37,745 nucleotides of DNA, from the NCBI GenBank assembly GCA_017619375.1, contig JAFZSL010000018.1, positions 1 through 37,745 of the forward strand, read 5' to 3'. This stretch comes from Prevotella sp. Its GTDB lineage: Bacteria > Bacteroidota > Bacteroidia > Bacteroidales > Bacteroidaceae. This document shows positions 5,588 through 35,336 of this stretch, piece by piece. A program made the translations under genes and the position numbers. The notes under the pieces are model-generated. The model was not told the origin of the DNA, did not search any database, and saw only the letters and a program-made list of their open reading frames with translations. Every line of letters begins with the position of its first letter. Position 1 is the stretch's first letter.

Positions 5588-5763
5588 ATTAAAATTTTCC
5601 AAAATGTATCATAATTGTTTGCATCTTTTTCTTTTTATTTTGATACAATGTGACAACAAACAAATTTTATGGTATTATGGATAAAAAGAACATTGGAAAT
5701 GCTGCAAAAAATGGAAAAATGATACAAAACGACTAAAAGTTGCTGAATAAAGCCCAAAAATTG

Positions 5764-5790
5764 TAGGGACGGGGCTTGTGCCCGTCCCTA
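5764..5790. repeat. 10-bp perfect hairpin, REP-like
   Basis: TAGGGACGGG (5764-5773) and CCCGTCCCTA (5781-5790) form a perfect 10-bp inverted repeat around a 7-nt loop. There is no T-run on either side, so it is a poor terminator. The 'GGGACGGGGCTTGTGCCCGTCCC' theme is typical of REP-like intergenic palindromes in many bacteria (established knowledge, from memory). Confidence 0.6.
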
Positions 5791-5820
5791 TGACTTCATA
5801 TGGCTTTAGATTTTAATAGA

Positions 5821-6015
5821 TGAGTCCACTTTAAAAAGTCAGTTATGAGCAAAAGGGCAGTGCGCATCTCCCCTCCCCTCGTAGGGGTGATGGGGTGGGG
5901 TGAATCATATTTGGAAATCAACAAGTTACAGACCCCACCCCTGCCCCTCCCCTTGAATGGGAGGGGATACCATTCGGCTCACGGCCATCTTATTCCACTT
6001 TTAAAAGTGGACTCA
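5821..6015. repeat. MITE-like or palindromic intergenic element with TIR-like ends
   Basis: The ends are inverted copies: TGAGTCCACTTTAAAAAGTC at 5821-5840 against TTAAAAGTGGACTCA at 6001-6015. The right end contains a perfect 18-nt palindrome (TCCACTTTTAAAAGTGGA, 5994-6011). Inside are G/C-rich tracts in opposite orientation: a G-rich tract near 5883-5900 and the C-rich run CCCCACCCCTGCCCCTCCCC at 5933-5952. No ORF is supported. With 5464-5820 it fills the ~600-nt gap between the large secreted protein and the GH2 gene. No target-site duplication was identified. Confidence 0.5.
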
Positions 6016-6060
6016 TAGATGTATTCGGAAGGACACAAGACCCACCCCTACAACTGAATA

Positions 6061-15036: not shown

Positions 15037-15056
15037 ATCGTGTTGTAATTAAAGGA

Positions 15057-15087
15057 CAAAGATAGTGCAAGACAAAGAAAATACAAA
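15057..15087 (-). promoter_or_regulatory. promoter of GH27
   Basis: On the minus strand TTTG (15087-15084), 19 nt, TATCTTTG (15064-15057): an exact match to the Bacteroidetes promoter. Transcription would start near 15050, leaving a very short leader (about 15 nt) before the GH27 ATG at 15036. Confidence 0.7.
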
Positions 15088-15191
15088 ACAAATAACGAAG
15101 TTTTTATTTTCTATTCCGAGACGACGCCTTGAATGGTTTTCGGTTTGAGTCACTTCGAAAAGATGAAAAATCAGAAAATAATCACCCAAGA

Positions 15192-15223
15192 TTTGCATTT
15201 ATGATGATTTATATGTATCTTTG
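15192..15223 (+). promoter_or_regulatory. promoter of the C10 peptidase gene
   Basis: TTTG (15192-15195), 20 nt, TATCTTTG (15216-15223) matches the Bacteroidetes consensus exactly. Transcription would start near 15230, about 70 nt before the ATG at 15303. It is divergent from the GH27 promoter, the two -33 boxes being about 105 nt apart. Confidence 0.75.
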
Positions 15224-15302
15224 GCATTCATTTGTGATGATTATGAAATCAAGATGATGTCTACGATTAAAACCAACGAATATAAAACTAAAAATCTACG
15301 AG

Positions 15303-18300: not shown

Positions 18301-18545
18301 ACTTTGGCGACGTGAACGGCGACGGAGAAGTCAACATCACCGATGTGTCCTTGCTTGTCAATCGCATCTTGGGCATAGACAACGAAGGCTTCATAGAGAG
18401 CAATGCCGACATCAGCGGCGACAGACAAGTCAACATCACCGACGTGACTTCATTGGTGAACTACATCCTCAAAGGAGGTCGCGACATCCTGGACATGGTG
18501 GTCAACGGCAAAAACGGATTCACCTTTGATGGTGTTGGCAACTGA
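15303..18545 (+). CDS. C10 family (streptopain-like) cysteine peptidase with dockerin-like C-terminus (1080 aa)
   Basis: The protein has a signal peptide (MKKNVLLLMVLLLTTLGVDA) and a Spi-type propeptide (about 21-135, with 'YYVFNN' and 'GGFVIVSGDD') that normally blocks the active site until cleaved. The C10 catalytic domain (about 138-375) has nucleophile C170 in VTGCVATAFAQ and H319 in SGHAFICDGY, followed by the family motif FHINWGWGG. Immunoglobulin-like domains follow (about 390-760). At about 999-1060 two EF-hand-like segments (DVNGDGEVNITDVSLLV and DISGDRQVNITDVTSLVNYI) form a type I dockerin-like pair. The layout resembles interpain A of Prevotella but is longer. Secreted proteolysis is the expected role. 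The dockerin has no known cohesin partner here and may simply be a calcium-stabilised end or anchor. Confidence 0.92.
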   Translation: MKKNVLLLMVLLLTTLGVDAAPVDKQRAQSIARDFMVEKGLKVGPLRSVEKIAKVKADGTCPYYVFNNGQDGGFVIVSGDDIAPKVIGYSYTGTFEETNVPENITAWLDYCAEQIEILTSHPNDAARLVRSATQTARISISPLVMTHWNQYAPYYNLTPTRGGKPCVTGCVATAFAQVMKYYEWPKQATTTVPGYSWNGTTLEDLAPITFQWSNMLYDYQGGGNYDAGCSDSETNQTAVAQLMKYCGYAVKASYNTGSTSASSSYIPSALRDYFGYQGSITSVDRSSFSSADWDDLIYNELYHGRPVLYSGRTSSDSGHAFICDGYGEEGYFHINWGWGGMSDGYYLLSILEPGKQGAGGSNSGYNYEQSAIVGIQPGVSDEVTVTGPCLKILDFKLMDYNADYVQQYGPQYFGVGYQLQGMMDGEHQLSAQLLQNGEVVYQGAILNEAPWGIDLGVGHYNPRIIPYPFFYRISNIANGTYEVRLVCRMEEEGKEFEWVPCLGSEYYHNEVTINRGSDTPVIYYNSTVSPQIECTSFTTSPNIYVNNKTSAVVSLTNRGGTFFQDKIYLWINNNKVANDMAYIDAGKTIDLSLSFTPTVTGNLPVKVTLDSSGENVIYTGSINVVNEPENAAYHLELTSWNIDNADLDGKKICGGVVTGTLTVTNTGTKTFSGIIGIGYTDSSGTSSMTYNPGGYTLAVGESVNLEYTVKEPTIGKKYKLACWLNVDWNSKIGETPMFELVEGGYTYWTADGTAKTKAVSGSTSITVVPEAVAVKFFTTPTGTISLNSNPNTIYYVSGSTTPSSLSGKNVVLNGKINEIKFVDGYDFYVPSGFTAQKATYSRVPTHGASGNAGWETIVLPFAAQKAFNRTDNKQISWFMNDSDSGKDFWLEQFAYTDGVSVYFDYVDEIRANVPYLIATPGNNWGAGHNLLNKTIEFTADNVNIPETSKLKSMTDAFVFVGLSGKTNVSGYVLDDNGKSFVLRDDVSQNAFRAYFKMNSNFGDVNGDGEVNITDVSLLVNRILGIDNEGFIESNADISGDRQVNITDVTSLVNYILKGGRDILDMVVNGKNGFTFDGVGN

Positions 18546-20091: not shown

Positions 20092-20922
20092 ATGAAGAAA
20101 GAAACCATAGCGGGATTTGCCTTGTTTTTGACGATCATGGCTCTTGTCGTGTTCGCCTACATCTCTTTCCTGGGGATGGAATACCTGTTCGAGGGCAATC
20201 ACCTGCTGACCATCCCATTGCTGCTCTTGGGAGGCATGTTGCTTTCATGGTGCATCCGCGTGATGTGCAGGAGCAAGGCTTCTCGTGACAAGCGCAGTGG
20301 TCTTCCCAAAGAGGTGTCGGCCATCATTGGCGCCATTGCCATCCTCTTGGTTGGGAGCGTGGCTTTCACACAGTTCCTTTTCGTGTACGACCATCAGAAG
20401 GAGTTGAGGGAGTCCATGTTCGCCACCATCGGCGAGGTGTCGAAAATAGACTCTGTATACAAGGATTATGCCCAAAGCCGTATAAAGACATACGACAAAA
20501 CCTTGAAGAAAGCACACGACAAGGACCGTTCAGAGAAGAAAAGAAGCCTGAAACGGCGGCTCATCCCCGCTGATTATGACACCATTTGTGTGCAGCGAAA
20601 GCAGTGGCTTGCTTCCATCAATGACGCCAGCGTGTGGAATGTCTCCACTCCCCGCAACTTGCATTACATCGTGACTGCGGGCCACGACTGGACAGAAGAG
20701 TACAAGCAGGTGTCTGCTGTCATTTATCAGAACGAGGAGGCCATCCCTTTCGGTGAGGGCGACACGGCTTTCACCCAAAGCGAAGCGAATCTGCAGTTCA
20801 GCACGCCACACATGCCCAATGGGCGTAGCCTTGTGGCCACTGTCCTATGCTGCCTGCTGATACTGACAACCTATTTCCATGTCAGACGGCCCAAGAGCTG
20901 GTATGTTGGCAACCACAGATGA
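20092..20922 (+). CDS. four-helix membrane protein, first gene of the GTPase/SEDS/PBP cluster (276 aa)
   Basis: No family was recognised. Predicted helices lie at about 8-28, 38-60, 74-96 and 248-265. The basic loop RVMCRSKASRDKRSGLPK between helices 2 and 3 and the basic C-terminus (HVRRPKSWYVGNHR) place both on the cytoplasmic side, leaving residues about 97-245 outside the membrane. That exported part begins with a Lys/Glu-rich, probably helical stretch and then a Tyr/Trp-containing part. The stop codon overlaps the next start as ATGA (20919-20922), so it is translationally coupled to the membrane GTPase. No promoter of the Bacteroidetes type was found in the 97 nt upstream, so it may be read from the GH29 transcript or a divergent promoter. 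It is probably a scaffold or sensor for the downstream complex (inference). Confidence 0.75.
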   Translation: MKKETIAGFALFLTIMALVVFAYISFLGMEYLFEGNHLLTIPLLLLGGMLLSWCIRVMCRSKASRDKRSGLPKEVSAIIGAIAILLVGSVAFTQFLFVYDHQKELRESMFATIGEVSKIDSVYKDYAQSRIKTYDKTLKKAHDKDRSEKKRSLKRRLIPADYDTICVQRKQWLASINDASVWNVSTPRNLHYIVTAGHDWTEEYKQVSAVIYQNEEAIPFGEGDTAFTQSEANLQFSTPHMPNGRSLVATVLCCLLILTTYFHVRRPKSWYVGNHR

Positions 20923-22739
20923 CGACAAATGAGAATATGCAGGATATGATAAAGGATATCGCATTCAATCCATGTGGCTACACGGTGTCCGACATCCGGG
21001 AGAAGGTGTCGGGCGGAGAGGTGACGCGCACCCAATTGCAAGGCGTGTTTGGGAACGACGTGGTAGAAAAGATATTGGATGGCGAGTTGGTTCCCCCTCT
21101 TCCATCGGGGAGTGCCGATGAAGCTGCTATGGGAAAGATGGGCGATGCCACACAGGTGGTGGTTTGGGGAATGCCTAAGTCGGGCAAGACCTTGGTCATT
21201 GCTTCGCTGCTCTCCCTCAAAGGCATGGAATTGCAAGCAAACGGGATGTCTGACCGCATCAATAGGATGAAGGGACTGTTTGCCAATAAAGGTTTGCAAC
21301 AAGTTCCGCATGACAGTTCATGCAAGGTGGATTACCCCGTCGTCTATCGGACCCATCTGATGGGAAAAAGCTACCCCCTTGTCATCACGGAAGCCACCAT
21401 CCCGGAGAATGGCGACATGGATGTCGACAAGTATGTGAGCGGGGACAAGATGCTGATTCATGTGTTTTGCATCGATTGCCGCCAAGATATCAGGAAACAG
21501 GAGAGCAGGCTGCTCGAGTTGATGGGAAAATTGGGTGGCTGTCTCAACCGCACCGATGGAATCTATGCCCTTGTCACAAAGACAGACCTGATGAACGCGC
21601 CAGCGGCATACAAGGAAAACGCCGCGCAGACGCTCGTGACGAAAGGGATGCCGCGATTATGGTGCAGCATACAGAACGTGTGTTTCGAGAAACAGATTTT
21701 CAATGTGTTGCCCATACCTTTCAGTACGGGTAGGTTTGTTGTTCGCGACTTGGCATGTTTGGATGCCGGCGATGCCGAGGCACTCTTCCACGATGCCTTG
21801 CTGCCCAAGTGCCAACCTCGGCGCAGCATGATTGGAAAAATCCTCTCGATGGGAAAATGGTGGCAGGCAGCCCTGTGTGCCGTACTCCTGGCTTGTGTCA
21901 TCATCTGGGGTGGCTACAAGGCATACAAGGTGTTGACCGCTCCTCCTACCGCACCCATGCTGCCTTACGACTATAGGGCTGCTTTTCTGGAAGAGGAGAA
22001 GGACCTGCCGTGGATGAACTTCACGAAGGCCTCGTCGTTATATGACAAGAAGCGCAAAGACCTCAATGTGGAAAGGGCTCTGTTCCAGGCATCGGGCGAG
22101 ACGGTCCTGACGGCGGAGGACCTGCGTGTCTGCGATTCCGCCTTGACCAATGATTATGCCAAGGTGGTGTCTGCCAAATGCGACAACCTGCTTGCGTCGA
22201 GCCATTGGAGTGAAGATGAGAAAATCCTGCAGCAACTCCTCTCCAGGACGAAGGAGTTGTTGGCCCATCAAGATGTGCTGATCAGGGACGATGTCAATGA
22301 TTATCACACGGCCCTGGACGACTATTTCAAACAGGTGAAGCCGCTCATTGTGAAGAGCCAGAATTGTAAAAGCATCAAGGATGTGGACTTCGTGGAGAGC
22401 AAGGATGGGCAGGAGTGGCTCAAATACCCTTATGACAACGAAATCAATCTCAAGGAGGGACTTAGGATGGCTACGGTGAATGCTTACGAGAATTGTGCCA
22501 AGTATTTCCAAGACCGAATCGATACCATCGCCGAAAAGTATCCCAAACCTTTGTGGTCTTTTGCTTATGATGATAATGCTAACAAACGCATAGAGCTGAT
22601 GACCCCCTATGAATATGATGTGGATTCCTTGCTGGAACGGTTGGACGGGAAAGGTGATGCTTTCGACAAGGCAAGGTCCATCCTTAGGGCAACTCGGAAA
22701 AAAATAGAGAGTAACACCAATGAGCCGTGGTTTAATTGA
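20919..22739 (+). CDS. membrane-anchored GTPase with extracytoplasmic helical domain (606 aa)
   Basis: The cytoplasmic N-terminal part (1-313) holds a G domain: Walker A GMPKSGKT at 84-91 and a G4-type motif TKTD at 220-223 (usual NKxD/TKxD), which argues for guanine nucleotide. One helix follows at about 314-336 (AALCAVLLACVIIWGGY). The C-terminal ~270 residues, predicted helical and charged, would lie outside the membrane. This could carry a signal across the membrane or be pulled by nucleotide state. The start chosen is the ATG at 20919, which overlaps the previous stop; an upstream in-frame ATG (20847) would only add sequence lying inside the previous gene. The next gene starts 42 nt downstream. 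It differs from TssM/IcmF in having its helix after, not before, the G domain. Confidence 0.8.
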   Translation: MTTNENMQDMIKDIAFNPCGYTVSDIREKVSGGEVTRTQLQGVFGNDVVEKILDGELVPPLPSGSADEAAMGKMGDATQVVVWGMPKSGKTLVIASLLSLKGMELQANGMSDRINRMKGLFANKGLQQVPHDSSCKVDYPVVYRTHLMGKSYPLVITEATIPENGDMDVDKYVSGDKMLIHVFCIDCRQDIRKQESRLLELMGKLGGCLNRTDGIYALVTKTDLMNAPAAYKENAAQTLVTKGMPRLWCSIQNVCFEKQIFNVLPIPFSTGRFVVRDLACLDAGDAEALFHDALLPKCQPRRSMIGKILSMGKWWQAALCAVLLACVIIWGGYKAYKVLTAPPTAPMLPYDYRAAFLEEEKDLPWMNFTKASSLYDKKRKDLNVERALFQASGETVLTAEDLRVCDSALTNDYAKVVSAKCDNLLASSHWSEDEKILQQLLSRTKELLAHQDVLIRDDVNDYHTALDDYFKQVKPLIVKSQNCKSIKDVDFVESKDGQEWLKYPYDNEINLKEGLRMATVNAYENCAKYFQDRIDTIAEKYPKPLWSFAYDDNANKRIELMTPYEYDVDSLLERLDGKGDAFDKARSILRATRKKIESNTNEPWFN

Positions 22740-22781
22740 CCACATCTGTCATAACATGTTTCACCATTCAATCGAGAATAT

Positions 22782-25700
22782 ATGAACTTGCTTTACAAAC
22801 TGCTCAATCTTTTGAGCCTATGTAAATTCAGAAGCTCCAGCAGCCGCTTTGCCAGTGTTGTCGCTTTCATCCTCTTGGCCGTTGTTTTCTCGCTCTGTTG
22901 GATGATGTCGGCAAAAGTGGAGCGAAAGTTGGTCTTCACCATCGATGAATACACTCTGGGTGGCGTCACGACGGTCACCTTTGGGGAAAACAGCGATTTC
23001 TGCATGAAGAATGTGCCACACGACTTCCTTACTGTCACTTATCTGCCAGAAAAGGGCATGTTCAAATGGAGTGTGGGAAAACAGTTCAAGGATACCTTGC
23101 AGTATTTCAAGATCAATGGTGAAAACCCCAACAAGCACGTCATCCGCAACGATGCCTCGCAAGTGGTGGAAATGAACCTTTCCGTCAATGATGGCGACAC
23201 ATTGAAAGCCACTTTCACCGGGGCTGATGTATGGAAAGCATGGAAGGATTTCAAAAAGCAGAAAGACGTGATGGCACGCCATCTCGCCGCCTATCTCAAA
23301 CTTGCAGGGGACGGGGCGACTCATCAGGACAGCGTTCGCTTCCTCGCCCAGATGCAGGGCAGCAAGGTGCGGTCCTTTTTCGAGAAAGTGGGTGACAACA
23401 TCGTCCTTGTCATCCTCGACGAGATGACCACGGTGACCACCGATGGGGAAAAGCAAACTTACAACAGGGAGGGGGAGGCACCCCTCAAGGACGGACGGCT
23501 CAAGGTGCAATTCTTCGGACTTGCTGATTGGTGCTATATGGACGGCGACAAGTCCAAGGCCTATTTCAAGGTCGATGGTGTCAACTATGTGATGAAGCCT
23601 GCTGTCAAACTGACGGAGTGGGGTGCGGGGCACGCCACCATCATCCCGTCGGGTGCGGGGCTGCGCATCACTTTTCCCAAGCCCATCTCCTATGTGGAGT
23701 CGGTGGACTCTCTACGGAAGAGGGCGGAAACGGCAAGCAAGATCCTCACCATCAAGCAGCTCAACAATTCCTATCCCACCAAGAGCGACCTCTACCTGCC
23801 GGCATTCTCCAGTGCCATCAATTTCGACCTTTGCAACATTGAATTCTATCATCAGAAGGATTCCATTTGCATCAAGGGTAACAATGACAAGGCGCAGTTG
23901 GTGAAAAACCCGACAAGCGTCATTCCAGCGTTGGGGAAGATGGCGCTGCATTCGGGAAAGGACTTGATGTCGTGTCGGGTTGGTTTCATCAAGGGCTCTT
24001 TCATCATGGAGTACCTGTGGCTCCCGCTTGGAGTGCTCATGGTGCTGTTGGTGATGGTGTGGCTCAAGACGGGCCCGGTGTATGTTCGCGATACCAGCTG
24101 TCTCTATAATCCCAAGCATGTAGCCAACTACAGGCCTTACTTGTCACTGCTCCTCATCTGTTGCATGGCCTATTGCGTTTGCAAGTCGCTCATTACGCTC
24201 AAACTAAGCTATTCATATCCGTATTTTGAGAAACTCACCGGCATCATGCCGTTCTCCACATCGCTGATGATGCTCCTCTTCTTCAGTTTGACCATGCTGT
24301 TCAATACACCTTTGCGTCATTATGCTACACAGAGGAAACCGATGAGGCGCATGATGCATTGGATGGTGTGTGCCTTGCTGTGTGTCGGATTGGGCGTCTT
24401 GTTCTTCTTCGTGGCCGACAAGCTGGTGAGCCAAAGCGTCATCGACTCCTATTTCCATGACGAGGTGTACCGGCTCAATCCATTCAAATGGTTGGAGACA
24501 TACGGCATCAACGACACCCACCGCTCCGTGGTGTACGCACTGCTGGCGGTGGAGGCGGCCGTGTTGGTGTTGTGGCTTTTGGCCGACTGGTTGTGGAAGC
24601 CATTGTCGGTGAAATTGGAAGGCAAGAGGGAAGCTTGGAAGAAATGCTCTGACAAGATGATGGAGAAAATAGGCGGATGGTGGCAGAAAATCAGCAAAAA
24701 ACACCCCAGCCATCACATCTTGGCCGTCATCTTCCTGGTGCTGGCTGTCATTTTTCAATGCAAGGTGGGATTCAACTGGTGGTTGTCCCTCGGGTCGGTG
24801 GTGCTTTTGGCCATTGTGTGGTGTGTGCCTTTCGTGACAGAGGCTTTTTTCGCCGCACTGAAGAGTTTGTTCCCCACGCATTTCATCGTGTTCATCATCT
24901 TGTATGTCATAGGCGATATCTCTGGGAATTTTGGAACGGCGTTCATCACGCTGATAGTCATTGTCGGCATGACGCGGGCACTCACCAACGTGGATGTGTA
25001 TGGAGGGAAGGTGCCAGGGCATGTCATCTTCTGCCAGATGCTTTTCATTTCCATGGCCTACATTGTCGCTGCCATGGTGGGCGACCATGGGTATGTGACC
25101 AATTACCTGGGTTTCTTGATGTGTGTCTTCTGTTTCTATTTCTTGATGAAGAGGCCGGTTGCAGTCGACGATGAGGTTTATGAGAGAATGCAGAAGGAGA
25201 AACGCTGGGCGAATGCCATCCTTTTCGTGCTGGTGGGTATGATGTTGCTCCTGCCCGGGGTCTGCAGTTGGTTGTTCAATCCTGAAAAGGTGAACTACGA
25301 CCGTTTTGCACGAAGGGTGATGCTCTACTCCAATTTCGAAGACCTGGAGCGAAGCGGATACAGGTATAGTGAGAGCGACGCTGAGTTCATGGTCATCATG
25401 AGCCACTACATGCGGCCTGCCGATGGACGCGACCCGCTCTCCAACGACAACCATTTCCTGCATATGTCCATCAGTTCGGGGCAATCGCCTGTCGTGCTCA
25501 ACGACCTGAGCATGCCGGCGGCCTTCTTCGGCACCTACGGCATCTATCTCACCACAACAGTGTATTTCCTGCTCCTCTTCATCGTCATGTGGATGGTGAT
25601 GCAGTTCAGTCTCTCCTATTACGACAATGACTCTCGTCTCACCAGGGCGATGCAGTGGCGGTTGCTTGCCATGATGATGTGGGTGGGAACCAGTTTCTAT

Positions 25701-25865
25701 ATCTATCTGTCATATGTGGGCAAGTTGCCGTTCACCGGAAGACTCAATCCTGGATGCGGTGTCGATGCGGTGGGAGAAGCATTGGAAACGGCATTCCTCC
25801 TCGCATTCATGGCGGCCGTCACATGCAGGGAAACCAGCAGAAGTTATGATGACGAGTGGGACTGA
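22782..25865 (+). CDS. SEDS-like (RodA/FtsW-type) polytopic membrane protein with large exported N-terminal domain (1027 aa)
   Basis: There is one N-terminal helix (about 23-44), a ~360-residue extracytoplasmic domain, then roughly 12 helices from residue 410 on. The C-terminal ~200 residues follow the SEDS pattern: 'RRVMLYSNFEDLERSGYRY' recalls the R..xxF..P..GYQ segment; 'VVLNDLSMPAAFFGTYGI' recalls HTDFIFA..GEELG and places D908 where the catalytic Asp of RodA/FtsW lies; then a long helix and GKLPFTGRLNPGCG (980-993), which recalls LPxTGxxLPFxSYGG. SEDS proteins polymerise glycan strands from lipid II together with a class B PBP; such a protein is encoded four genes downstream. The large N-terminal exported domain is not usual in SEDS. 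The SEDS assignment is from motif spacing by eye and needs a profile or structure test. Confidence 0.65.
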   Translation: MNLLYKLLNLLSLCKFRSSSSRFASVVAFILLAVVFSLCWMMSAKVERKLVFTIDEYTLGGVTTVTFGENSDFCMKNVPHDFLTVTYLPEKGMFKWSVGKQFKDTLQYFKINGENPNKHVIRNDASQVVEMNLSVNDGDTLKATFTGADVWKAWKDFKKQKDVMARHLAAYLKLAGDGATHQDSVRFLAQMQGSKVRSFFEKVGDNIVLVILDEMTTVTTDGEKQTYNREGEAPLKDGRLKVQFFGLADWCYMDGDKSKAYFKVDGVNYVMKPAVKLTEWGAGHATIIPSGAGLRITFPKPISYVESVDSLRKRAETASKILTIKQLNNSYPTKSDLYLPAFSSAINFDLCNIEFYHQKDSICIKGNNDKAQLVKNPTSVIPALGKMALHSGKDLMSCRVGFIKGSFIMEYLWLPLGVLMVLLVMVWLKTGPVYVRDTSCLYNPKHVANYRPYLSLLLICCMAYCVCKSLITLKLSYSYPYFEKLTGIMPFSTSLMMLLFFSLTMLFNTPLRHYATQRKPMRRMMHWMVCALLCVGLGVLFFFVADKLVSQSVIDSYFHDEVYRLNPFKWLETYGINDTHRSVVYALLAVEAAVLVLWLLADWLWKPLSVKLEGKREAWKKCSDKMMEKIGGWWQKISKKHPSHHILAVIFLVLAVIFQCKVGFNWWLSLGSVVLLAIVWCVPFVTEAFFAALKSLFPTHFIVFIILYVIGDISGNFGTAFITLIVIVGMTRALTNVDVYGGKVPGHVIFCQMLFISMAYIVAAMVGDHGYVTNYLGFLMCVFCFYFLMKRPVAVDDEVYERMQKEKRWANAILFVLVGMMLLLPGVCSWLFNPEKVNYDRFARRVMLYSNFEDLERSGYRYSESDAEFMVIMSHYMRPADGRDPLSNDNHFLHMSISSGQSPVVLNDLSMPAAFFGTYGIYLTTTVYFLLLFIVMWMVMQFSLSYYDNDSRLTRAMQWRLLAMMMWVGTSFYIYLSYVGKLPFTGRLNPGCGVDAVGEALETAFLLAFMAAVTCRETSRSYDDEWD

Positions 25866-25919
25866 CAATCAAGGTAATGAACATATTTTATTAATCAATC
25901 ACATAAAACATCAAAAGAC

Positions 25920-27587
25920 ATGGGATTCGTCGATAAATTGAAGTATCGTCTTTCAGCTGTTCATTTAAAGCATGTATGCAAAAGGCTGAGCTACTTTTAT
26001 AGATATGAGGTAATAAAAAGGAAGCGCATCCGCCTGGCCGTGCTGGGCACAACCTCCAGTGGCAAGAGTTTCTTGTTGAAAGACATCATTTCCTCCTTGC
26101 AGAATATGTGTGCCAACTTTCATGATTTGGAAACAGCGCTTCAGCCATATAGCAATATTTACAGCTATAAACCAGACCAAAAGGGTGGCAATGGTGGAAC
26201 GCCCCTTTATGCATGCCGGCAAGATGACCATTATGGGGCTACTGTCAAACATAACAACCCCAATCATGATGAATATGACATCGACTTCCTCAACATCCCT
26301 GGCGAAATTTTCGAAGTCCCCAAAGATGGCTCAATATCCAGGTTGTATGCATATAACGTTTTGAGAGACCAACTCAAAAAGGCGGGAAGGGTGTTCGTCG
26401 TCAAATTGTGGATGCGAGAGGATACGGAAGAGGAGGTCTGGATTGTGGAATATGTGCATGGGGCAACCAGTGACACCCAAAGTGCCAACGACGATACGCT
26501 TATGTCTTTCAAGAATTGGACCAAGTTGTTTAAAGATTTGAATGACTATAGATTCAAACCTGTCAAGGGGTCGGAAAGGAAAATAAGCGGTGCCTATCTG
26601 CTCAAGCATTTCTTTGAATACGACACTGATTCAGCTATCGACAGCATAGGGGAGTGGATAAAAGCTAATGGCAAGGATAAATTGGGGTTTGACAAGACCG
26701 ATTTTTCCACAACCGGTATTGATAGGAGCTTCGTATTCTTCCAGTATTGCTCTTTAGCCACTGACATCGTGGTTTGTGACAGAATTTTCGCCAATGCAAA
26801 GGACAATTTGACGCAGATGCCGTTCGAAGACTTGGTCAATGGTCTTAACGCCTTCATCAAGGATAGCAGTGAGAGTGATAGCCTACATGTATACCTTGCT
26901 TTCCGGAATGTGGACTTCATCATGGATGCGCATGAGGATACATACAAGATGCTCAACGAAAGAACTTTGGCTGAAATGCCTGATATGGAGCGTCATAACG
27001 CCATCTACTCGCTATTTGCTTATGCCATGCAGCATTACTTGGACCCTACTTTGAATGTCCAAAAAAGAATCGCTGCATTCTTGGGCATTCCTGAGGACAA
27101 GTTCCAGTCAGACGGGACTCAGGCAGTCACGCCTGATGGTATCACTACTGATGTCGACTTGCTGCTACAAGCGCTCGTGGATCCAAAAGGTGGAAGTGGC
27201 TACCTGACTGTCGTCCCAGGTCTAAAAGAACACATATCTAGTCGATTGGGTAGTCTAAAGTTAGGCTTCAAGGGTTTGCTCAACAAAACCCAGTTCAAAC
27301 CGATGGATGAGACAAAACCGACGGGGAGAATAGTTCCCCATGTATATTTCTCTTGCACACCCATCACGAGCGAATATGATATTTACCACAATTATGTTGA
27401 TGAAAAAAACGGTACGTCCTCAGATTTCAAAAAAACAAAGAATGGCGATGATTATTATTTCAAAGACCTGGAGGCCAACAAACTTTGTTTTGGAACTTTC
27501 CAGTTGACCATGGACATCCTTGCACAGCATCAATTGGGTAATATCAAAGTGGGAGGGTTGCTGAGAATCATGCAGAACAAAGTTTGA
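25920..27587 (+). CDS. P-loop GTPase-like protein, paralogue A (555 aa)
   Basis: A soluble protein with Walker A GTTSSGKS (43-50) near the N-terminus and an unusual switch II motif IDFLNIPGE (121-129), where Asn-Ile-Pro-Gly-Glu stands in for the canonical DTPG. It shares an ordered motif set with the next gene: YACRxDxHY (98-105), FLNIPGExF, ATDxVxCD, YLAFRxVD, PHVYFxxTPI and LCxGxxQLxxDIL. No clean NKxD is seen; FRNVD in the YLAFR motif may fill the G4 position. This resembles the 'double-GTPase' (DO-GTPase) families of GTPase-associated conflict systems (from memory, needs a profile search). It starts 54 nt after the SEDS-like gene, and its stop overlaps a TTG in the next gene's frame. Confidence 0.75.
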   Translation: MGFVDKLKYRLSAVHLKHVCKRLSYFYRYEVIKRKRIRLAVLGTTSSGKSFLLKDIISSLQNMCANFHDLETALQPYSNIYSYKPDQKGGNGGTPLYACRQDDHYGATVKHNNPNHDEYDIDFLNIPGEIFEVPKDGSISRLYAYNVLRDQLKKAGRVFVVKLWMREDTEEEVWIVEYVHGATSDTQSANDDTLMSFKNWTKLFKDLNDYRFKPVKGSERKISGAYLLKHFFEYDTDSAIDSIGEWIKANGKDKLGFDKTDFSTTGIDRSFVFFQYCSLATDIVVCDRIFANAKDNLTQMPFEDLVNGLNAFIKDSSESDSLHVYLAFRNVDFIMDAHEDTYKMLNERTLAEMPDMERHNAIYSLFAYAMQHYLDPTLNVQKRIAAFLGIPEDKFQSDGTQAVTPDGITTDVDLLLQALVDPKGGSGYLTVVPGLKEHISSRLGSLKLGFKGLLNKTQFKPMDETKPTGRIVPHVYFSCTPITSEYDIYHNYVDEKNGTSSDFKKTKNGDDYYFKDLEANKLCFGTFQLTMDILAQHQLGNIKVGGLLRIMQNKV

Positions 27588-27598
27588 AACATACAGTG

Positions 27599-29059
27599 AT
27601 GGCAGGTATGAATAAAAGCATCAGAATAGCGGTGATAGGGGAGACGGCAAGCGGAAAGAGCTATCTCCTCTACGACCTCATCCATGCTTTCGAATTGTTG
27701 GGGTATGTACCGGAACAGTTGCCACTGAGTTTCCCGCATGGTAGTTTCGGCACCTACTTTTATGACACTTTCAACAGCAAGACCGGAGGCATGCGAGGAA
27801 CTGAGCGCTATGCATGCCGACCCGACAACCACTATGCAGCATGGCTCTCGAAAGGGAGATTCGGCCGGCGATTGGAGGTGGACTTCCTCAATATCCCGGG
27901 GGAGATGTTCAACTTGGGTGAAGAGGTGTTGCAAAAGTTCTTTGATCTCAGGCAACACATCGAAAAACGGGACAAGGGAGTTTTCTTCCTCTCCGTATGG
28001 CGAAATGCCGCGGGAAAGGAAATCCGGCTGATTGTTTACAAAGGACTCGATTTGGCCAATGGCAATATAATCAAACCTGAGAGCAGTTCCCGCTTTGGAA
28101 ACTATATCGGATGGGAACACTTGCGATACGAACTCCAAGAGGGCCGTTTCAAGGAGGCGAGCCGCAAACCTGTCAGCGGAAGGTATATGCTCTCCCACCT
28201 GAGGGAACTGCAGACCGACTCCGTGCTGCTCACCATCAAGGATAGTTGGAATGCAATAGTCTCATTGCAACAGCAAGATCAAAAGATGTTGCTTAAAGAC
28301 TATGTGCAAGTGCTCTTCTATTTCTATCCCCTCGTCTATTGCCAGCAAGCCACCGACTTGGTCATTTGCGACAATCTCGTCCACGGCTCGAGTGCGGGGA
28401 ATCTGGCGAAGAATGTGGCGTATTTCATGAGTGAGGGAAAACGGAGGCCGAATGCCTATCTGGCTTTCAGAGGAGTAGACAAGGCATTTGTCAACTTTCC
28501 GGGAAACAAGGGCTCGCAAATCCTCTCCCTCATCAGTTCCGATGCCTCTTTGCGAAACAAGATCTACGAATGGATGATGGATGACATACAGGGGCAACTC
28601 GAGAAAAATACATTTGGCAACATGGCAAGGTTGCCGGATGAATGGGTGCAACATACCCGTCAGAGCTTTGGTCCTTCACCGGGAAATGGTTTTTGGCATC
28701 TCCTCAATGAAACGATGGTGGAGGGCCCCTTGGAACGTTTGCTGGCGCACAAGAAGACACCTGGTGAGTTGCTGCAGGAGTCGGGAAAACGGTTGCCGCC
28801 ACACGTTTATTTCACGGCCACGCCAATTGATGCCGCTTTCCGCGTCTACAAGAATGACGAGGTTGACGTCACCAGGTTCTACTGGGAGGATGGTGGACGG
28901 ATGAAAGTGTTTACGCAGGAGGTCAACAGCGGCCGTGAGCAGCATTTATGCCTGGGGAGCTACCAGTTGCTCACAGACATCCTGTGGCAGAACGGCATCA
29001 GTTCGGATGGATTGCGCCAACGTGGCGAACATTTACTATATATGCAAAGTAAAATGTAA
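27599..29059 (+). CDS. P-loop GTPase-like protein, paralogue B (486 aa)
   Basis: A paralogue of the preceding protein: Walker A GETASGKS (14-21), YACRPDNHY (71-79), VDFLNIPGE (94-102), ATDLVICD, YLAFRGVD, PHVYFTATPI and LCLGSYQLLTDIL. The shared motifs in the same order show an old tandem duplication that has since diverged. No canonical NKxD is visible. The start is uncertain: a TTG at 27584 overlaps the previous stop (TTGA), with ATGs at 27599 and 27608; the first ATG is used here. The next gene follows 17 nt after the stop. The two paralogues probably form a heteromeric nucleotide switch. Effector and partners are inferred from neighbours only. Confidence 0.75.
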   Translation: MAGMNKSIRIAVIGETASGKSYLLYDLIHAFELLGYVPEQLPLSFPHGSFGTYFYDTFNSKTGGMRGTERYACRPDNHYAAWLSKGRFGRRLEVDFLNIPGEMFNLGEEVLQKFFDLRQHIEKRDKGVFFLSVWRNAAGKEIRLIVYKGLDLANGNIIKPESSSRFGNYIGWEHLRYELQEGRFKEASRKPVSGRYMLSHLRELQTDSVLLTIKDSWNAIVSLQQQDQKMLLKDYVQVLFYFYPLVYCQQATDLVICDNLVHGSSAGNLAKNVAYFMSEGKRRPNAYLAFRGVDKAFVNFPGNKGSQILSLISSDASLRNKIYEWMMDDIQGQLEKNTFGNMARLPDEWVQHTRQSFGPSPGNGFWHLLNETMVEGPLERLLAHKKTPGELLQESGKRLPPHVYFTATPIDAAFRVYKNDEVDVTRFYWEDGGRMKVFTQEVNSGREQHLCLGSYQLLTDILWQNGISSDGLRQRGEHLLYMQSKM

Positions 29060-29076
29060 AAGATAATGTTTTTCAT

Positions 29077-31788
29077 ATGATAAAGACAATCAACATATCT
29101 AAATACGCATCTGGCTCGTGGCCTGACCGCATAGGCGACACAACGTTGTTCTACTCGGAGAACTATACGCACCATGCCAGTGACTTGAGCGGCCTGTTTC
29201 TCGACAACCCACCAGTACTCTCCTCCAAGCATGCCTCTCTGGTGTGGAAATACAATGCAGATGTAGACCGCTACATCCTCATCCATGTGCAGGGGTCGCA
29301 TGTCGTGAGCAGGGCGCTGGGGCGCATCTATCCTTTCCGCGCGGGCTATGAGGTGAGTCGTGACGGGATGAATGCCATCGGGTTTGCCATCACTTCCTTC
29401 ATGCAGGCCGTTCCAAGGATTGATGCCATGCCTGTGGGACGCGTGGTGGAAGCCACGGACGTTGATGTAAGGCAGACGAAGCCAACAGAGGAGGAGCGCA
29501 ACTTTGCCACGCATGTCATGGCTGCCTTGGCCGAGGGCAAGACTTTGTTTGTCGCGCTCGACAATGTCGGGGAACAATATTTTTGCGATGGCGTGTTCAA
29601 GGGAGAGTTCCAGATCCTGACAGGGGCGATGGATGCGCTGCCCGTCAACTTGCGGAGATACGTCTCTTTCGGCTTCTGTGTCGACGAGCATTTTGCCAAT
29701 GTGTTGGATGGTGTGCTTGTCGTTGTCTATGACAAGGCGAGTCAATTGTTGCCTCCTGCTGATGCCTTGTCGTTGACATGGAAGGAGGCTCTCGCCCGTC
29801 CGGCACAAATCAGCAATGAAAAGAGAGAGCAGCTGCAAACCATCCATTTGCCAGGGGAAAATGAACCTTTGCTGACCAATGAACAGTTGAGAAGGGCCTT
29901 CAAGGTGGCCGCCATGCCTGTGGAGAAGCTGCTGGATGGCGACTGGGCCATCTGGCGTGCACTGGGGAATGGATTCGAACTGCTCCAAACGCAGGGATGG
30001 AAGTCTTTCAAACGTTTCCATGCACAAATGGATGATGAGACAAAGGTGGCTTACGCTCGCTGGGCGTGCAACGCTTCGCTGGATTGGACGACTGAAGGCT
30101 TTACTGAAGACATGTTCAACCTCATGGATTACAAGGAAGAAGATGTGACCAAGCTGCAGAAAAAGGCTTTGTCGGAATATTTGAAAGAAGGACGTTACTC
30201 CTTCCTTTTCCAAAACGGGATGAACGATGAGGTGAAGCAAATGCTCGACGGCAATTTTGTAAGGTCGTTGCAACTCAACGATGCGCAACAGGTCATCGAC
30301 TGGTATCATATCTTCAAACGCTTTGAGTGCGATGGAAACAGTGGCGTGAAGGTTGCTTTCGGCAAGTTGTTCGGAGATTTGGTCGTACCCAAACTCAAGT
30401 CGATGAAGAAGGTGGTGGAATGCATGAGGAGATATCCTTTCATTCCCGTCGATTATTTCAACCCGCCCAAGGATGTCGCCCTGCTCGGTGAAGTCAAGGA
30501 CTTGAAACCCGCCTACAGGGAATTGGTGGAGCAATGGGTGAGCGAGGCCGCATCGGCTTTTTCATTCGGTGACATCGGAATGCTGATGAAGGCTTTCGAC
30601 AGGGTGCTGGCAGCTTCAAAGGATGAGGGACGCTCGCCCGAGCAGATGGCACTGGAACATGTCGATGAGAGTGAACTCATCTCGTTGCTGGCTGTGGGAA
30701 AGGAGAGCGAGGTGGTCGACAACTGTGAGAGATTGCTGAAGATGGCCCGCAAATTGCCCAAAGTGTGGGACGATTTCGTGAGAGACACCTTGCTCCCCGC
30801 AGTGCAGCATGTGCTGGTAGGTGGGAAGAAAGGACAGGGTGGCCTGCAGTCGTTGAGCAAGGAGGCACTCCTCGATGTGAGCAAATGGCCCAAGATTGCC
30901 GAACTGAACAAGACACACCCCTGGGTGTTCAATGTGGTGGCGGAACGGCTCAAGACACTTTTCGATTCGACCTCGTCGAAACTGGGTGGAGAAATCAAAG
31001 AGCAGTTCATTTATGCCACATCGCTCAAGGAGGAGAAAAAGAGAAAGGATGAGGAGAAGGACGGCAAATCCATCAAATACAAGAAAGATGCCAAGAAAGC
31101 GTATCCCATCATTAGTTTATATATATCGACCATAAAAAAAAGCAACAAGAAAATGTCAAAAGAGTTGGAGCATCTGTTTCGTGACCTTAGGAAAAAGACA
31201 CGCAACTGGAGAATAATAGGACTGATAGCCGGGATTTCCATTGCTGTCATCTTCGCCTTCGGAGGCTTGATGGCGGGAAAATACCTGTTCGGCAACGCCC
31301 AACAACAGGAAGAGGGCGGAATCGCCATCTTATGGGAGGGTGACAAAAGCAGCAACTTGATGAGCCGGTTGGCATGTCTGGCCGATTGGGACAGTGTCAG
31401 CAAGGTGAAAGTGGACACCCTCGAGGTGCCACACCTCAAGTTTGTGAAAACCGCCGACTTGAGACCCCTCAGCAAAGCTTATTACAATAAGTTGCCCGAA
31501 GTACTTGACACGGCCGTGGTAAGGGCTTTTCTGTTCAACAAAAAAGGTGAAATGGAGGGGAAAATGGACTCGCTCTACGTGAATGAAGGTAATCCGCTGA
31601 TAGAAAGCATCTTTGATAAGCCATACCGCATCAAGGATGTCACCATCAATGGCAAGACCTTTGATATTCCCAATGACAAGATCTTGGGCAAGGACACGTT
31701 GATGAGCACCAAGGATGCCAAGTATTACCTCTCCTTGGTGAATTTCCTGTCAAAGGAACTGCCCGACTCCGTGTCTTTCGCATATTGA
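29077..31788 (+). CDS. GAP1-like GTPase-associated protein with C-terminal membrane anchor (903 aa)
   Basis: Residues 1-220 resemble the N-terminal domain of GTPase-associated protein 1 (segments such as 'DLSGLFLDNP', 'GRIYPFRAGYEVSRDG' and 'MDALPVNLRRYVSFGF'). A long helical middle (about 230-640) follows, then a Lys/Glu-rich stretch (646-680), one transmembrane helix at about 713-738 (IIGLIAGISIAVIFAFGGLMAGKYLF) and an exported C-terminal domain of about 165 residues. The bulk therefore lies in the cytoplasm with the GTPases, while the tail reaches the site of wall synthesis. GAP1 proteins are known as constant partners of DO-GTPases (from memory). No protease or nuclease motif was found. 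It may link GTPase state to the SEDS/PBP pair (inference). Confidence 0.7.
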   Translation: MIKTINISKYASGSWPDRIGDTTLFYSENYTHHASDLSGLFLDNPPVLSSKHASLVWKYNADVDRYILIHVQGSHVVSRALGRIYPFRAGYEVSRDGMNAIGFAITSFMQAVPRIDAMPVGRVVEATDVDVRQTKPTEEERNFATHVMAALAEGKTLFVALDNVGEQYFCDGVFKGEFQILTGAMDALPVNLRRYVSFGFCVDEHFANVLDGVLVVVYDKASQLLPPADALSLTWKEALARPAQISNEKREQLQTIHLPGENEPLLTNEQLRRAFKVAAMPVEKLLDGDWAIWRALGNGFELLQTQGWKSFKRFHAQMDDETKVAYARWACNASLDWTTEGFTEDMFNLMDYKEEDVTKLQKKALSEYLKEGRYSFLFQNGMNDEVKQMLDGNFVRSLQLNDAQQVIDWYHIFKRFECDGNSGVKVAFGKLFGDLVVPKLKSMKKVVECMRRYPFIPVDYFNPPKDVALLGEVKDLKPAYRELVEQWVSEAASAFSFGDIGMLMKAFDRVLAASKDEGRSPEQMALEHVDESELISLLAVGKESEVVDNCERLLKMARKLPKVWDDFVRDTLLPAVQHVLVGGKKGQGGLQSLSKEALLDVSKWPKIAELNKTHPWVFNVVAERLKTLFDSTSSKLGGEIKEQFIYATSLKEEKKRKDEEKDGKSIKYKKDAKKAYPIISLYISTIKKSNKKMSKELEHLFRDLRKKTRNWRIIGLIAGISIAVIFAFGGLMAGKYLFGNAQQQEEGGIAILWEGDKSSNLMSRLACLADWDSVSKVKVDTLEVPHLKFVKTADLRPLSKAYYNKLPEVLDTAVVRAFLFNKKGEMEGKMDSLYVNEGNPLIESIFDKPYRIKDVTINGKTFDIPNDKILGKDTLMSTKDAKYYLSLVNFLSKELPDSVSFAY

Positions 31789-31820
31789 CACTTTTTGAAA
31801 AAACTTAAAATGACAAGGAT

Positions 31821-34553
31821 ATGGAGGAACCAAGAATAGAGTCAAGGATACTCGGAGACGGTGAAATCAAGCTTAGGCCTTTTTTCGTGGCAGGATTGCC
31901 TGTGCTCGTCTTGTTGGCGGCACTCGTCTTTTCTTTCACGAAAGGATGTACGCCGTTGGGAAAGGCGGGTGCCGGAAAACGCTACAACCCGGCGGAGAAA
32001 GTGGGGGAGGACGAGGGCTTTGTGGGCAAGGCCAACGTGTTGCTACGCGAATTGGTGGCAGATGTCGATGAGTCGGTGAGGGCCACTTGCCTCGACAGCC
32101 TCAACAAACGTTACCGTGCGTTGGAATTCGGCCTTCCCTACGGTGAAGAGCACAAACCTTATATCGAGGCTTCCGACCTGAGATTGGTGGCCATACACCC
32201 AGAGAGAATCAAAAGCGAGAAGTTAAGGACTTTCTATTTCAACAGCCGATTGCCGCAGTTGCTGAAACGACAGAGCGAACAACTCGACGAAACCTATTTC
32301 AGGATACGTTTCAAAGGAGACAGCATCAGGCTTAGCCATGTCAGGCCTATCGATTTGCAATACATACAATTGGTGCCTTCCATGTTCAAGGTCGCGCTTG
32401 CTAAGAATCCATGGACAGGGGCTGTCTATGGGGCGCCCAACTGCTTGTTCACAGACACCAACACGGTGTTTCTCACCTATGGCAACAGCGTGCTGCCACT
32501 GCACAACGAAGAGAGGCTTATACGAGACAATCCTCTGAATTTCCATGCGTTGATGAGCGAGGGCAAACTCATAGGCATGAGTGGACCGATAGATTACTAT
32601 GACTATTACCTGCGTGCTTTCAAGAATGGGGGAGGGCACAGCATCAACATCGACTTGAGAGACCAACTCGACTCCAGGGGTCAGGCCGAGTTCCTCCTTT
32701 GCTATTCCCACGATACGCTAATCATCTCACACAACACCAACCTCGTCGTGGTGGGCGAGGGTAATGCAAAAGCTTTCCAAAAACCGAAGACGGGAAGCCA
32801 AAGGGCTGATAAAATACCTCTTGTCGATGGCATGAAATTGCTGGTGTATGACGATGAGGATAGGAAGTTGGGAGAGTTTGTCATACAAAGAAAGGACCCT
32901 TCGCGATTGCTCTCATGCTTGGTGCAGTCGAACATGGGACAAAGCCGATTCTTCATCGACCCGGCACAGACCGACCTCTTCACGCAGCAAATGCTCAGGG
33001 GATTGTCAAGGCACCTCTCCAATCGTGACAATGTCGAGAAGGTGGAACTGTCCATCGACCCCATGCTGTCAAAGATGTTGGAACAGGAAATAGTGCAATA
33101 TCTGCATTCCCTGCAGGGTAACATCAGAAACAACAAACCCCAAAGTCAAATCAAGGAACAATATGACATGTCGGTCACTGTCATGGACATGGCCACAGGA
33201 CAGGTGCTCGCCACTCCCTTCTACACCTCGTTGTTCGACTATGAAGACATGCCGGAGAATATGAAGATGACAGCACGCAACACCTCGCTTTCCAGACGCT
33301 CCGTGGGGTCTGTGTTCAAGCCACTCGTGGCTTTGCCATCGGTTCTCACCAATCCCAATCTATTGGATATGAACACCTCCAGCCCGAGGAGATATGAAGG
33401 GCCGAAGGACTGGAAGGACCGAAATGCAATAGTCAATTTCTTTGGCCGACAAACCAAGGTGTGGGCAAGGAAAAGTTCAAGCCATTGGGGAGGATGCAAT
33501 TTCACCACATTCTTTTCTCGTTCCGACGACGTCTATCCTGTGGCATTGGCTGCCTTGGCCATGACCAATCAACGGCTGGATGCCTCCGTAACAACACTTC
33601 CCGTAGATGGGGACAACAATTTCTTTACATTGAACAATGGGTTGCTGGCGTTCAGGAAGGCGGAAGACCCCCGTACGGTCAACCAGCGTAACCGATATTT
33701 CACCGACTGGCTGTCATACCTTTATGACACCAGTTATGATGACATTAATGTTTGCGACCTCAATCTCTTCAACGGACTGTTCGCCAACGAATCTCTCGAT
33801 GCAGAGCAAAAACAGTTCGGATTGGAGGAAATTGCGCCGGAGTACACCAACCTTCGACTCGAACGGTTCTATGACGGGGATGACTTCCACGACAGATTGG
33901 TGCCATGGACATTGGGGCAGGGTGACAACATGTGGAACTGTGTCAAGTTGGCAGAGGCTTGGTGCCGGATGATTGGCAAGAGGGCCGTGCACGCTTCTTT
34001 CATTAAGCAGCGTGGCGATACTCTCCCCTCACTTGTTCAGTCGGGTGCGGAATATCCGGGATGTGTGTTGGGGCAGAGGTCGGTTGGGGCCATCAACAAC
34101 ACATGGAATGCTTTCCTTGACAAACTGCATGACGCGCAACAAGACGGTACGCTGCTGCCGCCTATGCGCAACAAGGTGAGAAGCCTTAACGATAGTGAGA
34201 ATGCCCATTTGACCCTCTTTGCCAAAACCGGCACGCCAGACCCATATATCCGCTATGAATTCCCCATGCTGGGTGGTAACAATAGGTATGTCGATATCGG
34301 CATGTATGCTTTCGTTCTTATGGACAACAACCAGTATACCAACAACATCCTGCGCAATCGACCAGGAAAAGGAGTGGCCTGCGTAGTGCGAATCACAAGG
34401 TCGTATCAGTGCAACAACTGCAGCCCGGGACAACAATGCAAAAGATGTGAAAGTTTTTTGGGCTTGCAATCCAGCCACGCGCGCGAATTCTTCAGCGCTC
34501 CGTCCTCAACACGCTTGCAGAAACTCTACGAGATGACGAAGGACTATTATTAG
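31821..34553 (+). CDS. class B penicillin-binding-protein-like transpeptidase (910 aa)
   Basis: One N-terminal helix (about 20-41) and a ~380-residue exported region precede a transpeptidase domain. Signs of the PBP fold: 'VELSIDPMLSKMLEQEIVQYL', 'VTVMDMATGQVLATPFY', the SxxK motif S497-V-F-K500 in RRSVGSVFKPLVAL, 'PWTLGQGDNMWNCVKLAEAW' (matching GQG...TPLQMA) and K802-T-G-T in LFAKTGTP. The usual SxN appears as S568-D569-D570, Asp replacing Asn. After the domain comes an unusual Cys motif CX2CX5CX2C (864-876). The role would be crosslinking of glycan strands made by the SEDS-like protein, as in RodA-PBP2 or FtsW-FtsI. It is the last gene of the cluster. Much of the N-terminal half does not look like standard pedestal domains, and Bacteroidetes housekeeping PBP2/FtsI are shorter. 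Confidence 0.88.
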   Translation: MEEPRIESRILGDGEIKLRPFFVAGLPVLVLLAALVFSFTKGCTPLGKAGAGKRYNPAEKVGEDEGFVGKANVLLRELVADVDESVRATCLDSLNKRYRALEFGLPYGEEHKPYIEASDLRLVAIHPERIKSEKLRTFYFNSRLPQLLKRQSEQLDETYFRIRFKGDSIRLSHVRPIDLQYIQLVPSMFKVALAKNPWTGAVYGAPNCLFTDTNTVFLTYGNSVLPLHNEERLIRDNPLNFHALMSEGKLIGMSGPIDYYDYYLRAFKNGGGHSINIDLRDQLDSRGQAEFLLCYSHDTLIISHNTNLVVVGEGNAKAFQKPKTGSQRADKIPLVDGMKLLVYDDEDRKLGEFVIQRKDPSRLLSCLVQSNMGQSRFFIDPAQTDLFTQQMLRGLSRHLSNRDNVEKVELSIDPMLSKMLEQEIVQYLHSLQGNIRNNKPQSQIKEQYDMSVTVMDMATGQVLATPFYTSLFDYEDMPENMKMTARNTSLSRRSVGSVFKPLVALPSVLTNPNLLDMNTSSPRRYEGPKDWKDRNAIVNFFGRQTKVWARKSSSHWGGCNFTTFFSRSDDVYPVALAALAMTNQRLDASVTTLPVDGDNNFFTLNNGLLAFRKAEDPRTVNQRNRYFTDWLSYLYDTSYDDINVCDLNLFNGLFANESLDAEQKQFGLEEIAPEYTNLRLERFYDGDDFHDRLVPWTLGQGDNMWNCVKLAEAWCRMIGKRAVHASFIKQRGDTLPSLVQSGAEYPGCVLGQRSVGAINNTWNAFLDKLHDAQQDGTLLPPMRNKVRSLNDSENAHLTLFAKTGTPDPYIRYEFPMLGGNNRYVDIGMYAFVLMDNNQYTNNILRNRPGKGVACVVRITRSYQCNNCSPGQQCKRCESFLGLQSSHAREFFSAPSSTRLQKLYEMTKDYY

Positions 34554-34820: not shown

Positions 34821-35336
34821 ATGAAAATGAAATCTTTTATTACAACGTTGTTCCTTTTGTTGGCAATGACGTGCAACGTGATGGCAGGCGAACTGACTGG
34901 TCCGAAAAACAATGAGGTGCAAGAAGTCACAGGTCCCTATACCATCATTATCACTGGAAATGGAGTCATCGGACGTGACGGCCCTGCAGGGTATGACACA
35001 GGTGTGCGCTTCTATAAAGGGCAGACACTCACATGCTACGGTATGGATGGGTCTTGGTACAAAGTGAAATACGGCAACGGCGTGCGCTGGGTGTCGTCAT
35101 CTTATGCAAAACCTTACAATGGGTCAACGGGGTCGACTGCTGCAGCTGTGACTTCTTATGTCGTCATCACAGGCAACAGGGTCATTGGTCGGTTGGCTCC
35201 CGCAGGTGCCGACAGTGGATTCAGGTTCAATAAAGGAGCCAAACTGCCTTATCTCGGCATGCAAGGAAGCTGGTACAAAGTGAAATACAATGGCAAAATC
35301 CTTTGGATTTCCGACCAGTTCAGCTATGTGCAATAA
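34821..35336 (+). CDS. secreted protein with two SH3-like repeats (171 aa)
   Basis: A signal peptide (MKMKSFITTLFLLLAMTCNVMAG) is followed by two repeats of about 60 residues (about 44-100 and 110-170). Both have the same pattern: 'VxxITGNxVIGRxxPAGxDxGxRFxKG', then 'GSWYKVKYxxxxxWxSxxY'. This is the layout of bacterial SH3 (SH3b-type) domains, which bind peptidoglycan peptides or other cell-wall ligands. There is no catalytic domain. It stands directly downstream of the PBP-like gene on the same strand, but with its own promoter after a terminator-like region, so any part in that system is only suggested by position. It is soluble or loosely held in the periplasm, with no lipobox seen. Confidence 0.8.
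   Translation: MKMKSFITTLFLLLAMTCNVMAGELTGPKNNEVQEVTGPYTIIITGNGVIGRDGPAGYDTGVRFYKGQTLTCYGMDGSWYKVKYGNGVRWVSSSYAKPYNGSTGSTAAAVTSYVVITGNRVIGRLAPAGADSGFRFNKGAKLPYLGMQGSWYKVKYNGKILWISDQFSYVQ

Follow-up and report, generated by a model that had tools for sequence, protein, structure and literature searches.

A Prevotella operon that joins GTPase-like proteins to a SEDS-like protein and a transpeptidase

A Prevotella sp. genome of 4.26 Mb (assembly GCA_017619375.1) carries, in one operon, several GTPase-like proteins next to proteins that resemble a SEDS protein and a penicillin-binding protein (PBP). The operon lies on contig JAFZSL010000018.1, whose positions 1 to 37,745 form the whole stretch of DNA analysed here (the window, 37,745 nucleotides). 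Synthases made of a SEDS protein and a class B PBP (bPBP) have housekeeping functions and are targets of antibiotics; their known regulation is by protein contacts and phosphorylation. We put at about even the chance that the operon encodes an accessory SEDS/transpeptidase glycan synthase under the control of a GTPase-like switch. If so, control by a GTPase switch encoded alongside would be new for SEDS/bPBP synthases. The same genome also encodes two separate SEDS proteins, one SEDS:PBP fusion and four more PF00905 proteins (frames of 643, 748, 826 and 839 amino acids), so that the operon is an addition and not the housekeeping set.

Gene content and conservation of the operon

The listing of open reading frames (ORFs) places seven packed genes, all on one strand, at 20092-34553 of the window. 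The 4-nt overlap of A and B (ATGA) is followed by spacings of 42 (B/C), 54 (C/D), −4 (D/E), 17 (E/F) and 32 nt (F/G). An earlier note, made from the sequence, had described this tight packing (−4 to 54 nt) and a set of motifs, namely Walker A and TKTD in a membrane GTPase, NIPGE in two P-loop paralogues, and SxxK and KTG in a transpeptidase. All were located: GMPKSGKT and TKTD in B, a P-loop and NIPGE in D and E, and GSVFKP and KTGTP in G. The features are as follows (TM, transmembrane helix).

20092..20922, + strand: A, a 276-amino-acid membrane protein with three N-terminal TMs, a non-membrane region of ~140 residues and a fourth TM (from the ORF and hydropathy)
20919..22739, + strand: B, a GTPase-like domain, one TM and a C-terminal non-membrane region; the ORF is listed from 20847
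22782..25865, + strand: C, a 1027-amino-acid SEDS-like protein with a TM, an FHA-like beta domain and a second beta domain (~47-400), then a SEDS-like membrane domain (~405-1020)
25920..27587, + strand: D, a soluble DO-GTPase-like P-loop protein (GTTSSGKS, NIPGE)
27584..29059, + strand: E, a paralogue of D (P-loop GETASGKS, NIPGE)
29077..31788, + strand: F, a GAP-like N-terminal domain (~1-250), a middle region, one TM (~710-741) and a C-terminal non-membrane domain
31821..34553, + strand: G, one TM, a large N-terminal region and a PBP-type transpeptidase domain (SVFK, SDD, KTG)
34821..35336, + strand: associated gene, starting 267 nt downstream of G, for an exported protein with bacterial SH3 domains

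The likeliest start of B is the ATG at 20919, which is in frame with the listed ORF. By hydropathy, the TM counts are ~4 for A, 1 for B, 14-16 for C, none for D and E, and 1 each for F and G. These counts leave a large, potentially exported non-membrane region in each membrane subunit. The exported domain that had been claimed for every membrane subunit is thus matched by a large region, and its export is a prediction from hydropathy.

Is this arrangement maintained elsewhere? Within the genus group the module was found at 25 distinct loci, the window included (26 were annotated, L056 repeating L012), and another class contributed one locus (genome G735). C occurs with a D/E-type GTPase in all loci; G is also present in each of them except one that is cut off by the end of its contig. 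GAP-like genes are present in 24/25 loci, the GAP-like domain not being found in L047. The neighbourhood survey proposed in the earlier note therefore shows conserved co-occurrence, and SEDS-like and transpeptidase genes devoid of GTPases, the outcome that would have spoken against it, were not seen: a GTPase gene is present in every locus examined.

Two operon forms can be distinguished. Type I has the order A-B-C-D-E-F-G (9 loci, window included). Type II (15 loci) comprises C, one D/E-type GTPase, a GAP-like domain plus transpeptidase, and a four-TM protein plus B-type GTPase. Six type II loci encode the GAP-like domain and the transpeptidase as one fused chain, and in ten the A-type four-TM protein forms the N-terminal part of a fusion with the B-type GTPase. 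Type II loci also have, in most cases, a second B-type GTPase, and a further protein (304-629 amino acids where complete); in eight loci a similarly placed ORF of ~290-325 amino acids comes next, and the four of these that were read at least partly look alike. Between C and the GTPase, L049 has one extra gene and L051 a TM protein. The G735 locus encodes C, a 461-amino-acid TM protein, a GTPase in two ORF pieces, a GAP-like protein and a transpeptidase. Since order and fusions are kept in 25 loci, coincidental clustering of unrelated genes is ruled out, its probability being negligible. Over 21 loci, the tree of C is correlated with those of the GTPase, the GAP-like protein and the transpeptidase (r 0.91-0.97), values that co-inheritance by itself would also produce.

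The SEDS-like protein and the transpeptidase

When the seven proteins or their profiles were compared with Pfam, NCBIfam, PADLOC and PDB sequences, few matches were obtained, and among the window proteins only G had meaningful curated matches, even weak ones. C is nevertheless probably a SEDS protein, as indicated by its motifs, by a topology that matches for the most part and by an AlphaFold model of low confidence. The motifs are collinear with those of SEDS proteins: an [x]TA motif, a large loop with Arg and Asp, and P[VFI][TI]G before the last TM. Among the C-family rows, the loop Asp, which we take to be the SEDS catalytic Asp, is present in 25/25 and PFTG in 24/25. The topology mostly agrees with that of SEDS proteins, one of the three canonical proteins compared having a differing TM count. 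We also ranked 656 ORFs against a canonical SEDS set (the ORF across the middle of each SEDS locus). The top non-SEDS scores were two module proteins (E 3.7e-4 and 4.5e-3), followed by a 370-amino-acid membrane protein located between C and the GTPase in L051 (E 0.015); further down came two A-type proteins and then more module proteins interspersed with decoys. Finally, RodA ranked nearest to the AlphaFold model, above WaaL, among the chains re-aligned. The absence of a SEDS fold, which the earlier note had named as fatal to its proposal, was thus not what this low-confidence model returned.

Several results weigh against this assignment. C has no match to PF01098 (Pfam FTSW_RODA_SPOVE), and a PF01098 search of its own genome matched three other proteins and not C. 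The hhalign comparison of C with canonical SEDS proteins was not significant, and Foldseek alone returned mostly Cys-loop receptors (best E 0.12, nothing significant). Taken singly, no test of C was significant. What backs the SEDS-like C-terminus proposed for C is therefore its motifs and topology, the ranking of folds and the linkage of the genes, and not PF01098, hhalign or Foldseek significance.

SxxK and KTG, which the earlier note had read in the transpeptidase, are present in 24/24 G rows; the SxN motif is replaced by SxD, the middle motif being S-D-D in 24/24 rows and S-N-D in the G735 protein. These counts come from 26 rows, of which two, both short fragments of the disrupted L050 gene, were left out. 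In that type I locus (reverse strand, ~14016-16654) the transpeptidase frame is split into three ORFs, by assembly error or decay. The curated matches of the window G are weak (PF00905, E 0.041; TIGR02074, E 3.7e-6). PF00905 is matched by 7/9 G-type proteins at E up to 0.1, the window G being below cut-off, and TIGR02074 by 8/9, the window G being far below cut-off. By the TIGR02074 matches, the model closest to the G domain is of class A, while the layout of the domain resembles class B; no GT51 match was listed. The hhalign comparison with PBPs of the genus and order gave 94% when pooled and 80-90% in subsets, and 7.6% with the own-genome SEDS:PBP fusion alone.

With RodA/PBP2 and FtsW/FtsI the module shares a polytopic SEDS-like subunit, a one-TM transpeptidase without GT51 match and collinear SEDS motifs. 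Unlike RodA and FtsW, C has a ~360-residue beta-rich region with the FHA-like domain between its first two TMs, and unlike either pair the module has GTPase genes in every locus and GAP-like genes in nearly all. Could C and G be catalytically dead relatives that serve GTPase signalling as a scaffold or sensor in the envelope? The lack of a close family match, SxD in place of SxN and the degenerate Walker B of type I B proteins all speak for this. However, SxxK, KTG, the loop Asp and PFTG are retained at the frequencies given above across deep divergence, which is unusual for dead enzymes, and we regard this explanation as very improbable. It is also rather unlikely that C belongs to the wider GT-C group and polymerises or ligates another envelope glycan, in the manner of WaaL or Wzy, with G as an acyl-transferase of altered specificity. 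The RodA rows rank above WaaL, the motifs are those of SEDS proteins, as is the topology in most proteins compared, the partner is a PBP-type transpeptidase, and the GH25 and SH3 neighbours described below indicate peptidoglycan.

A putative GTPase-like switch and how it might act

The P-loop of B (GMPKSGKT) and its TKTD motif are accompanied by a Walker B region diverged to TEA. D and E are 26% identical (BLASTP), and D/E-type proteins retain GK[ST] (34/34) and PGE (33/34). TKxD is found in 30/31 B-type proteins, which points to GTP over ATP as the ligand. B, D and E have no match to the DO-GTPase models PF19975 and PF19993. Among relatives the best score was that of the L054 D-type protein (15.5 bits, cut-off 27), and a PF19993 search of the own genome gave nine weak matches, all under cut-off and none in the window. 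By hhalign, D/E scored 85-88% against one DO-GTPase1 paralogue set, 4.8% against the second and 88-90% against both pooled, and matched the two DO-GTPase2 sets at 74% and 27% (85% pooled). These matches cover 50-160 columns; the controls, three of ABC type, gave 3.6-30% over 15-34 columns. B-type proteins scored 51% and 7.2% with DO-GTPase1 (93% pooled) and 12% and 62% with DO-GTPase2 (81% pooled). For reference, the true pair DO-GTPase1 and DO-GTPase2 reached 91%, D/E against B 29%, and single DO-GTPase1 sequences ranged from 0.1 to 88%. Among PDB sequences, the D/E profile matched Der/EngA proteins best, over the P-loop only. The comparisons support a resemblance of D, E and B to DO-GTPases, unevenly, and less evenly for B than for D/E. 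The claim of DO-GTPase-like proteins thus holds for D/E against one of two DO-GTPase1 sets and the pooled sets, and fails with the curated models.

The GAP1 label of F is unproven. F has no Pfam GAP1 match (PF20012/PF20013), and its GAP-like domain scored 0.2-0.6% against GAP1 by hhalign, a test in which real GAP1-N1 against GAP1-N2 likewise fails (0.1%). Of the core proposed in the earlier note, the SEDS/transpeptidase pair therefore stands on motifs, topology, fold ranking and linkage, the DO-GTPases stand in part, and the GAP1 protein is a candidate.

A wall synthase switched by GTPases is the best explanation of the gene content, linkage, fusions, motifs and SEDS-like topology that we observed; catalysis, the GTP ligand, the complex, peptidoglycan as its substrate and its trigger are what we infer from them. 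C would polymerise a lipid-linked wall precursor and G would cross-link the product, as RodA/PBP2 do. A cytoplasmic switch would be formed by the D/E pair together with membrane GTPase A-B and F, the GAP-like protein; single TM helices would carry its state to those domains of B, F, C and G that face outward. In such a membrane complex, D/E and A-B would act with F, so that C and G receive a conformational signal. The strongest hint at this mechanism comes from the type II fusions, in which one chain holds the transpeptidase, a TM helix and the GAP-like domain. The GTPase partner would there act directly on the transpeptidase, and these fusions pinpoint the predicted contact between switch and enzyme.

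Related systems, neighbourhood and distribution

The nearest published systems are the GAP1-N2/DO-GTPase systems (Kaur et al. 2020, PMC7159879). As described in that paper's main text, where two GTPases are present one of them has four N-terminal TMs and one C-terminal TM, and the systems have a GAP1 protein with a C-terminal TM, and SH3 or PEGA domains outside; their themes include tubulin, HSP70/GrpE and kinase/PP2C, and the words 'SEDS' and 'transpeptidase' do not occur in that text. The module shares with them paired P-loop GTPases with D/N-x-x-GE, a four-TM-linked GTPase, a GAP-like protein with a C-terminal TM and SH3 domains close by. It differs from them in that its seven proteins have no zinc-ribbon, FNIII or GAP1 match. 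Another relevant comparison is contig C61 of the own genome (L135:9645-16748), which encodes two FHA-like proteins and a PP2C-like protein, recognised by eye, together with a 1421-amino-acid SEDS:transpeptidase fusion, recognised by Pfam. In this fusion, as in the module, a large additional domain (by eye) precedes the SEDS part, a PBP part is present and four TMs lie between [x]TA and the loop. The C61 cluster differs in its phospho-signalling type regulators (by eye), its single fused chain and its Pfam SEDS and transpeptidase matches. No description of the present operon was found in the open-access literature, a coverage that leaves most subscription papers outside, which agrees with the earlier note.

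That note had also considered a conflict system. Is the module an immunity system of DO-GTPase/GAP1-N2 type, in which a SEDS-like/transpeptidase effector alters or breaks the wall when the switch senses an invader? The domain plan fits the GAP1-N2 description in the main text of PMC7159879, the presence of the module is sporadic, GAP1-N2/DO-GTPase2 sets exist in two congeners, and flanking proteins include strong PADLOC matches (mad3, 5e-48; MzaA, 7.5e-42). However, no PADLOC family occurs in more than 2 of the 87 flanking ORFs surveyed (best 25 of 37 families, single matches not traced), the sole PADLOC match among the seven proteins is PD-T4-6 for G (E 0.028), and GAP1 homology is unproven. 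The commonest Pfam families in the flanks (best 25 of 75) are SH3_3 (6), GH25 (4), PNP_UDP_1 (4), alpha-L-fucosidase (3) and AraC-type helix-turn-helix (3). Lysozyme or SH3 genes often adjoin the module: a GH25 gene directly follows the transpeptidase gene in 4/9 type I loci, and SH3 genes lie upstream of the C gene in five other loci. Since SH3 and GH25 genes recur beside the module, the data lean to wall work. The neighbourhoods lend the conflict alternative no support, a defence island included, and the sporadic presence is compatible with it; we consider it somewhat unlikely. It uses the same machinery as the GTPase-switched synthase and differs mainly in when it fires.

With the C profile, 20/398 genomes of the genus were positive, 2/296 of the phylum (the own genome and G735, E 2.8e-121) and 1/98 of G735's class (G735 itself), the own genome being counted in the genus. 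A single-sequence C search of the order found the own genome alone among 295, a transpeptidase search 2/60 genomes (own included), and a scan of the species-level genome collection 9 loci. The GTPase profile was positive in 18/329 genomes of the genus: 16 strong matches, all in SEDS-positive genomes, and two weak ones. Four C-profile-positive genomes, which may lie outside the 329 sampled, do not appear among the GTPase-profile matches; their loci carry the GTPase gene. A plasmid search with D and a phage search with G gave no match. These patchy counts suggest an accessory, sporadic module that has probably moved by horizontal transfer. The related assemblies are Prevotella/Prevotellaceae, two of them with sheep omasum or yak rumen in their titles; others bear a RUG isolate label, which presumably denotes rumen genomes.

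More tentatively, and with less than even confidence, we propose an undescribed class of nucleotide-switched glycan synthases, in which a DO-GTPase-like/GAP-like core drives its own deeply diverged SEDS/transpeptidase pair, moves between gut bacteria as one module, and lets a cytoplasmic GTP state directly control the cross-linking of a dedicated wall polymer. If this is true, DO-GTPase/GAP1-like systems, known from computation, would gain an assayable biochemical output, wall synthesis.

Some further observations concern related sets and neighbours. Operon-bearing genomes (2.7-5.7 Mb) appear larger than many of 20 listed operon-free congeners. A search for GAP1-N2 found 0/148 genomes of the phylum, and one for GAP1-N1 found 1/148, and 2/199 in the family of that genome, the same genome included. 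The GAP1-N2/DO-GTPase2 sets of the two congeners lie at L170:1767-9874 and L171 (reverse) ~2798-10727; DO-GTPase2 is above cut-off in 3/4 GTPases scanned, the L170 GAP1-N2 is just under it, and the L171 set is followed by genes that read by eye as Cas9 and Cas1. L067:5497-11685 has an apparent GASH protein, two apparent DO-GTPases and a GAP1-N1 protein, which matches PF20012 and is similar to nucleosidase/phosphorylase proteins in its C-terminal region. An Enterobacter kobei IncHI2A plasmid (L073) carries a GASH/GTPase/GAP1-like/EAD1/caspase set, and similar sets are annotated on three alphaproteobacterial plasmids. A VanW-like gene (L015:9042-9866) lies immediately upstream of a type II operon, and window positions 15303-18545 encode a C10 peptidase with an inhibitor domain and a dockerin type I domain.

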